Shown here piece by piece: positions 34,790 to 57,474 of a stretch of DNA of 64,000 bases (positions are counted from its first letter, which is position 1; each line of letters starts with the position of its first letter). Both the position numbers and the translations under genes were made by a program. The notes under the pieces are model-generated. The model was not told the DNA's origin. It saw only the letters and a program-made list of their open reading frames with translations, and did no database searches. Source of the DNA: Prochlorococcus marinus XMU1404 (GTDB taxonomy: Bacteria; Cyanobacteriota; Cyanobacteriia; PCC-6307; Cyanobiaceae); the NCBI RefSeq assembly GCF_017696175.1, contig NZ_JAAORE010000001.1, positions 1-64,000 on the forward strand, in the 5' to 3' direction.

Positions 34790-36376
34790 ATGAGTCAAAA
34801 ATTTTTAAACAAAGAAAGAGATCCTTCAATATTAATTTTAGATTTCGGATCTCAATATTCTGAATTAATTGCAAGAAGAATCAGGGAAGCTAATGTTTTT
34901 TCTCTTGTAGTAAGTAACTATATTTCAATAAAGGATATTCTTGACATTAATCCTAAAGGTATAATTTTGAGTGGAGGACCAAATTCGGTATATGAGGAAG
35001 ATGCGCCTAAGTGTAGTGAACAAATTTTTGATCTAGGTATTCCCATTCTTGGTATTTGCTATGGAATGCAATTAATGGTTAAAGAACTTGGAGGATCTGT
35101 AACTTCCGCAACTAAAAAAGCTGAGTACGGGAGAGCTCCAATAAATATAGATTTAGAAAGTGATCTCTTTTCTAACGTAAAAGATAAATCGACAATGTGG
35201 ATGAGTCATGGCGATTCAATAAATTGTTTGCCTGATGGATTTAATAAAATTGCGCATACCGAGAATACACTTCATGCAGCTATCTCAGATGATAGAAAAA
35301 AATTATATGGAGTACAATTTCATCCTGAAGTTATTCATTCAGATTATGGAATGACAGTAATTAAAAATTTTGTCTACAAAATTTCTGGTTGTATAGATGA
35401 TTGGACAACAGAAACCTTTTTAGAGGAGACAATTCCGACAATCAGAGAGCAAGTTGGCAATAAGAAAGTTTTGCTTGCCTTGTCAGGAGGCGTTGATTCT
35501 TCAACTCTTGCTTTTTTGCTTAATAAAGCGGTTGGGAAACAGCTTACATGCATGTTTATAGACCAAGGTTTCATGAGAAAAGGTGAACCTGAATTTTTAA
35601 TGAATTTTTTTGATAAGAAATTTCATATTAAGGTTGAATATATCAATGCTAGGGAAAGGTTTATCGCTAAATTAAAAGGGATAACCGATCCCGAGCAAAA
35701 AAGGAAAATTATTGGTGAAGAATTTATAAGAGTATTTGAAGAAGAAAGTAATAGATTGGGACCTTTTCAGTACCTAGCACAAGGTACTCTTTATCCTGAT
35801 GTTATTGAAAGTGCCGGTACTAACATTGATCCTAAGACAGGTGAGAGAATAGCTGTAAAAATAAAGAGTCATCACAATGTGGGGGGATTACCAAAAGATT
35901 TACAGTTTAAATTAGTAGAGCCATTACGAAAACTTTTTAAGGATGAAGTAAGAAAATTGGGAGCTGCTTTAGGCTTGCCGGATGAAATTATAAAAAGGCA
36001 TCCATTCCCAGGGCCAGGGTTAGCTATAAGAATTTTAGGAGAAGTGACTAATGAAAAACTTGATTGTTTAAGAGATGCAGACTGGATAGTAAGAGACGAA
36101 ATTAAAAAAGCGGAACTTTACAATGATATTTGGCAAGCTTTTGCAGTATTGTTACCGGTTAAAACTGTAGGAGTTATGGGAGATAAAAGGACTTATGCAT
36201 GGCCAATAGTTCTACGTTGTGTATCTAGTGAAGATGGTATGACCGCAGACTGGTCAAAAATTCCTTTTCAAATCTTAGAAAGAATTTCGAATAGAATCGT
36301 TAATGAAGTAGATTCAGTCAATAGAGTTGTTTATGATATTACAAGCAAACCTCCAGGAACTATTGAGTGGGAATAG
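34790..36376 (+). CDS. guaA: GMP synthase (glutamine-hydrolysing)
   Basis: Converts XMP to GMP; 528 aa. The glutaminase half has [17 protein letters not shown] near residue 85 with the nucleophile cysteine and YGVQFHPEV near 172. The synthetase half has the PP-loop [17 protein letters not shown] near 230 and ends in the nearly invariant KPPGTIEWE. The last seven codons, including stop, recur at 37285. An integration event here would leave the protein intact, and it does look intact. Confidence 0.97.
36356..36376 (+). repeat. guaA 3'-end copy 1 (att-like)
   Basis: Last six codons and stop of guaA (GTIEWE-stop). This 21-bp segment matches 37285-37305 at 17 of 21 positions, and all four differences are third-codon positions. 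Confidence 0.7.
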
Positions 36377-36406
36377 TCAATAGGGTCAATATCCAGTTAT
36401 AGAAAC

Positions 36407-36426
36407 AAAAAGGAGGTTTCCCTCAG
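36407..36426 (+). repeat. Direct repeat R, left copy
   Basis: The sequence aaaaaggaggtttccctcag lies 30 bases after the guaA stop. It recurs with one base deleted at 37189-37207. GAGG-TTTC-CCTC inside it can form a short hairpin. No other copy was noticed in the window. Confidence 0.75.
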
Positions 36427-36488
36427 ACTAAAAATTTTGTCACTATAAAGAAATCGTAGAGTTTTGAATTTTTCTACACCTTAGTAAA

Positions 36489-36806
36489 TTAGTTTTTTAT
36501 TTTTTTAATTTTTTCTAAATTCCATTTATCAAATATTAATTTCATTTCTCTTTCGTAGTATCTTACTTTCTTTGAGAAAGGTAGTTGTTGAATAATTATC
36601 CCAAAGGGAAATTTAAAAAAAGAAGAAACATAAACAATATAAAACTCAATAAAGGAAGGTTTTTTAGGAAGAGGTAAATTTTTTAAATATGCCCAATCAA
36701 TGCACGGTTTGAGTTGCTTATCACTAGCAGCAATATTTTGTCGACATCTCCAGTAAGAGAATAGATAAATGCTAATAAAAATCGGTAAAGGAAGAAGTCG
36801 CAACAT
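36489..36806 (-). CDS. Small membrane-anchored hypothetical protein
   Basis: A 105-aa protein. The N-terminus is hydrophobic (LLPLPIFISIYLFSYW, residues 3-18), a second hydrophobic stretch lies at about residues 53-73 (SFIEFYIVYVSSFFKFPFGI), and the C-terminus is basic (EKIKKIKN). No family recognised. It lies inside the 929-bp segment bounded by the two guaA ends, on the strand opposite to guaA. Confidence 0.6.
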   Translation of the reverse strand: MLRLLPLPIFISIYLFSYWRCRQNIAASDKQLKPCIDWAYLKNLPLPKKPSFIEFYIVYVSSFFKFPFGIIIQQLPFSKKVRYYEREMKLIFDKWNLEKIKKIKN

Positions 36807-36967
36807 TAAATATCAAGGATAATTTTTCTTCTCATTAATTCTATAAATGATAGTTTGGTTTTATGAAAATTCTTGATGATACCCCAAAGCATTTCTACTC
36901 GGGTAATAATACTCTATGAATTTCAAGTTAATAGGAGGACAATATAGATATAGATCTAGGAGGTCTT

Positions 36968-37150
36968 ATGAAACTATTCAATCAATTCAATGTCCTTCCA
37001 AGATACCTAACAGCATTTAATTATGCAGGGTTAAACTTGAATGAGACTCCACAAGAACTTGAGAAATGTACCCCTGAGTTTCAAAACTTTTGGGATAAAG
37101 AATGTAGAGAACATCCAACAAATCAAAATTGTTTAATTTACTGTGACTGA
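36968..37150 (+). CDS. Small Cys-rich protein with strong ribosome-binding site
   Basis: A 60-aa soluble protein: MKLFNQFNVLPRYLTAFNYA, then ETPQELEKCTPEFQNFWDKE and CREHPTNQNCLIYCD. Four cysteines include a C-x8-C pair near the end, like the small protein at 30252. An AGGAGG (36958-36963) sits four bases before the ATG, far stronger than most starts in this window, and a second AGGAGG lies at 36933. Function unknown; it lies within the guaA-end-bounded segment. Confidence 0.65.
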   Translation: MKLFNQFNVLPRYLTAFNYAGLNLNETPQELEKCTPEFQNFWDKECREHPTNQNCLIYCD

Positions 37151-37188
37151 GTAATTAATTTTGAGTTTTTATTAAATACAATCTGCCT

Positions 37189-37219
37189 AAAAAGAGGTTT
37201 CCCTCAGGTTTCCCTCAGG
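37189..37219 (+). repeat. Direct repeat R, right copy, with tandem duplication
   Basis: aaaaagaggtttccctcag (37189-37207) repeats 36407-36426 less one base. Its core unit ggtttccctca occurs twice in tandem, at 37196-37206 and 37207-37217. It lies 66 bases before the second guaA end. Confidence 0.75.
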
Positions 37220-37284
37220 AAAATGTGTGTTATTATGGGTTCAAACATGTTGGTATCACTACGTTTATGACTGCCTTATTTCTT

Positions 37285-37305
37285 GGTACTATAGAGTGGG
37301 AGTAA
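37285..37305 (+). repeat. guaA 3'-end copy 2 (att-like)
   Basis: Seven codons reading GTIEWE-stop, matching the end of guaA 929 bp upstream with only third-position differences. The preceding codons do not continue the match to guaA. An ATG at 37267 would make a 12-codon ORF ending here, not called as a gene. Confidence 0.7.
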
Positions 37306-37377
37306 GTTATAAAAATTTTAAAAATATTTATGACTCTTATATAAAAATGAAATTCTATAAATGACATTTAAAACGTA

Positions 37378-38091
37378 ATGAGTGAGATTATTAAATTAAG
37401 TCGATCTACTGTAGAAAAATATCTTAGCTGTCCTAGATGTTGTGTGCTTGATAAAAAATATAAAATAAATCCACCCTCATTACCTTTCACATTAAATATT
37501 GCTGTGGATAATTTATGTAAGAATGAATTTGATTATTATAGAGGCATTCAGGAGCCACATCCTTTGTTGATTGAACATGGTATTGATGCTGTCCCTTTTA
37601 AACACAAAAGTCTAGAATATTGGAGAAGTAATTTTCGAGGGATAAGGTATAAGTCAAAGGAACATCATTATGATTTCGGCGGAGCTGTAGATGATATTTG
37701 GCAGAAAAAAAATGGTGATCTTATTATTGTTGATGTAAAAGCAACATCAAGAAATCATTTTGATTGGTCAGAGACTTTTAATAAATACGAATATGCAAAA
37801 GCTTATAAGAGACAATTGGAAATGTATCAGTGGTTATTTAAAAAAAACGGTTTTAACGTTGCCAAAGAAGCTTATCTTTTATACTTTAATGGCAAGAAAA
37901 ATGAAAAGCTGTTTAATAATCAATTAAATTTTGATGTACATCTAATTAGATTAGATTGTGATACAACATGGGTAGAACAAAAGATAATTGATACAGTCAA
38001 TTTATTACGTTCGGATACATTCCCTAAACCATCAGTAAATTGTGAATATTGTAATTATTTGAAAAGGCGTTGGCAGTTATCGATAACTTGA
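37378..38091 (+). CDS. Stand-alone PD-(D/E)XK nuclease, Cas4/RecB-like
   Basis: A 237-aa nuclease-like protein. SCPRCC gives Cys18, Cys21 and Cys22 near the N-terminus. GGAVDDIW (Asp105), LIIVDVKATS (Asp119, Lys121) and RQLEMYQW (Gln146, Tyr150) make up the PD-(D/E)XK core with its QxxxY helix, and CEYC (Cys222, Cys225) lies near the end. This is the layout of Cas4/AddB-type Fe-S nucleases, but no cas1, cas2 or CRISPR array is present. I recall similar lone proteins in phages and in candidate phyla. It lies 72 bases after the second guaA end. Confidence 0.85.
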   Translation: MSEIIKLSRSTVEKYLSCPRCCVLDKKYKINPPSLPFTLNIAVDNLCKNEFDYYRGIQEPHPLLIEHGIDAVPFKHKSLEYWRSNFRGIRYKSKEHHYDFGGAVDDIWQKKNGDLIIVDVKATSRNHFDWSETFNKYEYAKAYKRQLEMYQWLFKKNGFNVAKEAYLLYFNGKKNEKLFNNQLNFDVHLIRLDCDTTWVEQKIIDTVNLLRSDTFPKPSVNCEYCNYLKRRWQLSIT

Positions 38092-56994: not shown

Positions 56995-57150
56995 TGTGTA
57001 GGATTTGGGTTTCTAATAAGATAAATTAATTTACAATCAATCTTCTCAGTATTTATACTCATAAAATTAAAAAATTTTTTTTTAATACAAGCAACTGCAG
57101 CAATATTTACACAATCATAAATTATCTATTACAACTTCTTAGTTATTTTA

Positions 57151-57176
57151 AAAAAGTGGAGTCCTTCCAGACTCCC
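57151..57176 (-). terminator. Rho-independent terminator of ssrA
   Basis: On the minus strand GGAGTC-TGGAAG-GACTCC is followed by AC and a T run (complement of the A run at 57151-57156). It closes the ssrA transcript and may also form the last helix of the coding piece. Confidence 0.8.
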
Positions 57177-57417
57177 CGTATCATTTGGTTGATAAGGCTG
57201 ATATGACCCCATCTCCTTAAGGATCAAGCAGCAACTGGTGCTGTTTGACGGGAGAAACTAACGATTTTGTTAGCATTTGTGTTTTTGCTCTAACCGAGCC
57301 GGCTTCAGTCACCTTCCTTATGCCCCGTCGAAACCATTACAACCCCAAATAGTGGAGTTGAGCGGAATCGAACCGCTGTCCGAAACATCGGTTGAGATCA
57401 CCTAGTCCAATTGGACA
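57159..57417 (-). ncRNA. ssrA: Permuted two-piece tmRNA
   Basis: Rescues stalled ribosomes with SmpB. On the minus strand the acceptor piece comes first: T arm AGCGG-TTCGATT-CCGCT and acceptor half CAACTCC plus discriminator A, ending at 57354. Six bases later (57347) the coding piece begins with GGGGTTG, able to pair with CAACTCC, and continues TAATGGTTTCGACGGGGC. The gene is thus circularly permuted, as known for marine picocyanobacteria and alphaproteobacteria. CCA is not encoded (CTA follows), so it must be added later. The 5' limit is approximate, near a 12-bp palindrome at 57406-57417. Confidence 0.93.
57225..57275 (-). other. tmRNA proteolysis-tag reading frame
   Basis: Sixteen codons from 57275 down to 57228 read ANKIVSFSRQTAPVAA, followed by TGA at 57225-57227. 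The hydrophobic -APVAA end is typical of ClpXP/ClpAP-type degrons. Confidence 0.93.
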
Positions 57418-57423
57418 TTTATA
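57418..57423 (-). promoter_or_regulatory. Possible -10 box of ssrA
   Basis: TATAAA on the minus strand lies just before the palindrome that begins the acceptor piece. A start about seven bases on would fall at 57411 or so. No good -35 was seen at the expected spacing. Confidence 0.3.
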
Positions 57424-57474
57424 TTCTGACAGGCAAAATGGTTATTGAATAGTTTTTTTTAAGTTTTATCGTAT

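Follow-up and report, generated by a model that had tools for sequence, protein, structure and literature searches.

The window, the whole stretch of 64,000 nucleotides of the Prochlorococcus marinus XMU1404 genome that was analysed, contains guaA, a second copy of the guaA 3′ end, two small genes between the two ends and, beyond a short host spacer, a host nuclease gene referred to here as pdx (Table 1). An earlier reading made from the sequence alone (the sequence-only reading) had placed the second end 929 bp downstream of the first, and its coordinates, its offset and the identity of 17 of 21 bases were all confirmed; guaA terminates with GGAACTATTGAGTGGGAATAG and the second end reads GGTACTATAGAGTGGGAGTAA, with the four differences (GGA/GGT, ATT/ATA, GAA/GAG and TAG/TAA) all at third codon positions, as had been stated. 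The degenerate 21-mer GGNACNATNGARTGGGARTRR matched twice in the window versus no match in 100 dinucleotide shuffles, and across the whole 1.67-Mb genome it occurred twice on one strand and not on the other, with no occurrence of the reversed control pattern. Relatives of guaA in same-genus genomes had 87–94 % identity among the matches listed.

Table 1. Features of the guaA–pdx region, in coordinates of the window
Feature	Position	Strand	Remark
guaA (GMP synthase), target gene	34790..36376	+	528-aa ORF; end stays GTIEWE-stop
attL, guaA-proximal att copy	36356..36376	+	host left half, element-type right half
Putative crossover core GAGTGGGA	36365-36372 (attL), 37294-37301 (attR)	+	
Inserted 929-bp unit	36377..37305	+	missing from 39 empty sites
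Left-end repeat AGGTTTCCCTCAG, single box	36414..36426	+	same-class relatives have a tandem pair here
105-aa cargo gene, no assigned function	36489..36806	-	in 8/82 fills
AGGAGG ribosome binding site of 60-aa gene	36958..36963	+	
60-aa cargo gene, no assigned function; tail CREHPTNQNCLIYCD	36968..37150	+	in 12/82 fills
Right-end tandem pair, 11-bp repeats GTTTCCCTCAG, putative integrase arm sites	37195..37218	+	
attR, distal att copy	37285..37305	+	element left half, host right half with original stop
72-bp host spacer	37306..37377	+	directly 3′ of guaA in empty-site genomes
pdx, host PD-(D/E)XK / Cas4-like nuclease, right flank	37378..38091	+	PF12705 8e-10, PF01930 1e-6

The two small genes are the only cargo of the window unit, and both behave as genes under purifying selection, with a pooled pN/pS of 0.115 over 12 genomes for the 60-aa gene and 0.269 over 8 genomes for the 105-aa gene. 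The AGGAGG stretch precedes the 60-aa gene in 11 of 12 relatives, and the 105-aa protein matched no family at the cut-off. The reported absence of an integrase between the two copies held in tblastn searches of the unit with four integrases from the hotspot and in Pfam searches of both open reading frames. Between positions 36300 and 37500, Rfam gave no match at the gathering threshold, promoter-like sites were not above those in shuffles and a single terminator-like site was predicted. The tmRNA at 57133–57442 was the sole RNA gene that ARAGORN found in the window, with no tRNA gene. A MITE of a DDE transposon was considered and rejected, as no pair of terminal inverted repeats spanned both ends of the unit among the 25 of 28 pairs listed.

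A search of 200 same-genus genomes matched guaA in 170 and pdx in 157. Both genes were present in 134 genomes among the matches listed (150 for each gene), and the 121 with guaA and pdx on one contig and strand were used, the other 13 being left out. The guaA–pdx gap was empty (44–75 bp) in 39 of the 121 genomes and filled (111–19,153 bp) in 82, both counted among the matches listed and with kinship ignored. Fifteen fills measured no more than 400 bp, 7 up to 1.5 kb, 37 up to 5 kb and 23 were larger; the fill of G496 (111 bp, with no guaA-end copy) was borderline and was counted as filled. The sequence-only reading had called for insert-free strains in which guaA has one end only, for strains whose cargo between the two ends is of another kind and for an integrase at the site in some of them, and all three were found; fixed content shared by all relatives with no empty-site strain, which it had named as contrary evidence, did not occur. 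In G268 (C1:36100-60500; L150, L151), guaA and pdx stand on opposite strands and 22.6 kb apart, an arrangement that points to an inversion there.

All 82 fills (309,827 bp) were scanned for further guaA ends with three substitutions allowed. This gave 101 copies, every one of them on the guaA strand, and ten mononucleotide shuffle sets gave none nine times and two once. At least one copy was present in 68 fills and none in the remaining 14, and a copy stood no more than 130 bp from pdx in 42 fills but not in the other 40. The units delimited by consecutive ends occur singly or in tandem arrays, for example with five ends in 15.5 kb in G025 and five in 4.2 kb in G551, counting guaA's own end. 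The 101 units ranged from 138 to 8327 bp, with a median of 1737 bp. The shortest, 20 units of 138–160 bp from 20 genomes, are hardly more than two ends placed back to back. One such unit, of 148 bp in G529, has ends that resemble those of the window unit, which reads as a unit of the G529 type with a two-gene cargo between its repeats. Elsewhere in the family, several genomes of genus g79 had three or four guaA-end matches each, which may reflect a more active hotspot than that in the genus of the window.

The origin of the two copies was assessed from their terminal bases. The earlier idea that one copy came from a related guaA can be refined in that each copy is a hybrid of host and element, the attL copy of the window having an element-type ending (...GGGAATAG) and the attR copy ending like the empty sites (...GGGAGTAA). 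The last five guaA bases were AGTAA at 33 of 36 empty sites versus 5 of 70 filled sites, and AGTAA was also present in 32 of 39 terminal distal copies (Fisher tests 1e-18 and 1e-15, kinship ignored; the counts leave out 12 filled and 3 empty sites with more divergent guaA of approximately 87–88 % identity, on a hand-made list). This distribution indicates that insertion gives guaA the tail of the element and shifts the host tail to the far end. In the distal copies, the bases vary to the left of the core but are native to its right, so that the exchange can be bracketed to about GAGTGGGA, the predicted crossover core, which was delimited before any comparison with the GIsul2 site described below.

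The short direct repeats noted in the window proved to be real, and their description can be refined in that they are part of a family of element ends that are matched but have diversified. They lie between the two guaA ends of the window as repeats of GGTTTCCCTCAG, with one copy of AGGTTTCCCTCAG on the left and two on the right that overlap by two bases. Tandem pairs with a period of 11 were present, at a threshold of at least 90 %, at the left end in 50 of 140 cases and at the right end in 56 of 101, whereas periods of 8–10 and 12–14 gave at most 2 pairs. In the 88 of 101 units that had GTTT-type boxes on both sides, the left and right boxes differed, at their best match, by a mean of 1.33 bases; for permuted left and right ends the mean was 3.43 bases, the lowest of 1000 permutations being 2.98. 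The end classes include CCCTC, to which the window unit belongs, CACGT, CCCGT, CACAC and GTCAC. In 10 of 15 integrase-bearing loci, at least one tandem pair preceded the integrase gene, at a position of roughly +36 or +97 relative to the core (script threshold). By analogy with lambda-type integrases, we infer that the 11-bp repeats are arm (binding) sites of an integrase. Among the right ends, 47 of 101 had a box that differed at no more than one of ten bases from that of a sampled integrase element. The arm class of the window was absent from the sampled integrase elements, the nearest box being 2 of 10 bases off. With one mismatch allowed, the window repeat pair was found at 29 sites in 16 of the 200 genomes, and among the matches listed 26 of these sites adjoin guaA or share a contig with pdx and lie on its guaA-facing side; the three sites without placement are in G478 (two) and G487 (one).

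A tyrosine recombinase (PF00589) begins approximately 200–1000 bp after guaA in G009, G027, G498 and G021; it matches phrog_1 as well as PF00589. A profile of these four integrases matched in 40 of 400 family genomes, from which 30 loci were taken, 12 with at least 50 % identity and 18 more distant. The integrase directly follows guaA in 10 of the 12 close loci, the other two being fragments, of which one follows a guaA-end copy, and none of the 18 distant loci had guaA in the locus (flanks of about 1.5 kb). Named records with the integrase directly after guaA are Prochlorococcus AG-347-G20, AH-716-K03, AG-355-P18 and AG-321-E21 and Synechococcus AG-679-A04, and the integrase of Synechococcus AG-679-C18 is a distant one, 5.4 kb from guaA. 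Only 2 of the 82 fills contained an integrase by tblastn with the four hotspot integrases; any movement of the units in the other 80 would presumably be in trans. No integrase of the guaA clade was found in the genome of the window, whose single PF00589 match, a 389-aa frame at C1:506475, was taken as a host gene because many other same-genus genomes have such frames. With one left box only and no mobile-type integrase in its genome, the window unit is probably immobile at present.

Recurrent partners in 14 integrase loci were an approximately 320-aa protein (11 loci), a small serine recombinase (10), a 200–266-aa protein (9) and a DUF5906-type protein (3). The approximately 320-aa protein matched no family, and its model was helical and of low confidence (pTM 0.37). 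An invariant HxH motif characterizes the 200–266-aa protein (integrase elements L187–L190, L223, L225, L227, L229 and L230), for which an HUH Rep is a possible identity and is given here as a lead; the fold search did not support it, the model being poor (mean pLDDT 61) and the structural matches listed being general ferredoxin-like folds with no Rep.

Searches of viral contigs with one integrase protein and with an integrase profile found no relative of that enzyme, and none of the element end was found there. The guaA-end pattern matched 24 stretches in viral contigs, of which 18 had an upstream translation corresponding to the guaA end of other organisms and none showed, by script, a nearby 11-bp tandem repeat of the GTTT type. 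Four AT-rich viral contigs of IMG/VR (L175, L176, L185 and L186) carry the guaA end of another organism, which could indicate that marine bacteria of other kinds harbour prophages or islands at guaA. The GenBank phage matches to the integrase were nine Thermus phage records at 24 % identity, and plasmids gave one weak match to the picocyanobacterial integrase and none that was close.

Insertion at guaA is of a known kind. Staphylococcal pathogenicity islands are located at guaA and SCC arrays at rlmH; the units described here are similar in targeting the 3′ end of a conserved gene and in forming tandem and incomplete elements, but differ in hosts, enzymes and cargo. In enterobacteria, GIsul2 inserts at the guaA 3′ end at 5′-GAGTGGGA-3′, and its integrase works at the guaA end in E. 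coli and moved an integrase-less CR2-sul2 unit with att sites in a recA− strain (PMC9376610, available text). The two systems are alike, as judged from sequence, in guaA 3′ insertion, a repeated core, empty sites and the bracketed core, and the common core points to more than one adoption of the guaA GAGTGGGA as an insertion target. They differ in hosts and cargo and in that the picocyanobacterial integrase has no close plasmid match, and integrase-less arrays with matched 11-bp arm repeats are not part of the GIsul2 description in the available text of PMC9376610. The window unit is also unlike an autonomous guaA element in having no integrase of its own, although one is present after guaA elsewhere.

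Other mobile systems were compared through the available text of their descriptions. Tycheposons have a tyrosine recombinase and exchange cargo in Prochlorococcus genomic islands at seven tRNA genes (PMC10872708, PMC10187409); the first two features are common to the guaA element, which stands at a protein gene and not at a tRNA gene. The integrase of Flamholz et al. occurs in Prochlorococcus and Synechococcus islands at tRNA-Phe or tRNA-Cys, often near a small serine recombinase, and is reported to be missed by PHROGs profiles (PMC10187409). Such a recombinase was likewise present in 10 of the 14 guaA integrase loci, not in the window unit, whereas the target is guaA and the integrase does match phrog_1. 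Integrase-less cassette arrays (CALIN) and MITEs have been described as hitchers (PMC11389934), and the guaA units resemble them in their many enzyme-less members, some of only 138–160 bp, with a presumed helper in trans, but have the guaA end as their common site rather than attC or terminal inverted repeats.

Taken from the sequence comparisons, the 929 bp are very probably a mobile cassette of the non-autonomous kind, integrated at the 3′ end of guaA and inserted, as we infer, by an integrase acting in trans and perhaps now fixed. An autonomous guaA element would enter the cell and its integrase would bind the 11-bp repeats and recombine the GAGTGGGA of the element with that of guaA, leaving guaA unbroken and GTIEWE-stop kept each time. 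The same enzyme could excise and insert, in trans, cassettes with compatible ends, and repeated insertion at the same core would build the tandem arrays. Elements with an integrase would be rare or soon lost and the cassettes would remain. More broadly, the guaA end could be the docking site of a system of mostly integrase-less units, some reduced nearly to attP, in which diversified end classes each answer their own helper integrase at one common 8-bp guaA core, an integron-like trade in cargo without integrons; on this wider proposal we are evenly divided. Counted against the cassette reading were the 80 of 82 fills that lack an integrase, the 14 of 82 fills with no copy and the 40 of 82 with none near pdx, the occurrence of the window arm class in no sampled integrase element, the left arm without a tandem pair, the presence of the same cargo pair beside tRNA-Asn and the lack of a viral-contig relative.

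Several of these points would also fit an element of the same origin whose site-specific movement has ceased, an old insertion with contents since swapped by homologous recombination through the conserved flanks and with copies that are scars. An integrase in only 2 of 82 fills, the incomplete left arm of the window, the 14 copy-less fills and the occurrence of cargo with different end classes are all consistent with this, but the matched ends within units, the many near-identical minimal units and the long arrays bounded at the same core argue that site-specific events have recurred in the lineage, even if the window strain had none, and we regard cessation of movement as possible though rather unlikely. 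The duplicate end is short and the window has no integrase, as would be expected if illegitimate recombination had simply duplicated the guaA end and no mobile element were involved; given the empty sites, varied cargo, tandem arrays, single orientation and adjacent integrases elsewhere, this is scarcely credible.

The cassettes might also lead the life of phage satellites, travelling in cyanophage particles or vesicles with an integrase borne by a satellite or phage. Their small size and lack of transfer genes fit such a life, and tycheposons are among the phage satellites described from marine bacteria (PMC11389934, available text). The scans of viral contigs, in which neither the integrase nor the element end had a relative, and of GenBank phages, which gave only the Thermus integrases at 24 % identity, speak somewhat against it, and we hold this route to be doubtful.

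Titles and abstracts of the open-licence literature included no paper on guaA insertion in picocyanobacteria. Within that literature, and as far as can be told from it, the guaA-tied picocyanobacterial integrase clade and the dominance of integrase-less, class-marked units are new, with an overlap with the elements of Hackl et al. 2023 possible. Prochlorococcus is very abundant in the ocean, and how genes pass between its streamlined genomes is still an open question. In the available text of the cited literature, the described routes use tRNA genes; the guaA hotspot, filled in 82 of 121 comparable genomes and mostly by enzyme-less units, offers a precise and testable site for such trade.

The 60-aa and 105-aa genes were found in units of different end classes (CCCTC and CACAC), which indicates that cargo and ends are exchanged separately. 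The pair also adjoins tRNA-Asn in G004 (C1:123200-124149, L264) and G001 (C2:117448-118386, L265), in both of which the guaA site is empty. The pair is therefore not bound to guaA, and it appears as if it moves between two hotspots, guaA and tRNA-Asn. The tail of the 60-aa protein (CREHPTNQNCLIYCD) is spaced like that of the genome's own CP12 (CDANPDEPECLVYDD; L232:1495-1713), the common spacing being C-x3-P-x4-C-L-[IV]-Y-x-D. The CP12 tail binds GAPDH. No profile match supported a kinship of the 60-aa protein with CP12.

Among the other cargo, a cluster of TPR proteins was present in 32 of the 82 fills, and several of these proteins appear, on reading of the sequences, to have a sulfotransferase-like part; the same reading points to a DNA methylase, acyltransferases and a second mreB and murA. 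The second mreB-like gene lies in the guaA fills of G325, G385, G407, G416, G447, G534 and G568. Each of these seven genomes has two mreB-like copies, compared with one in each of three comparison genomes, and five of the seven also have a murA-like frame at guaA.
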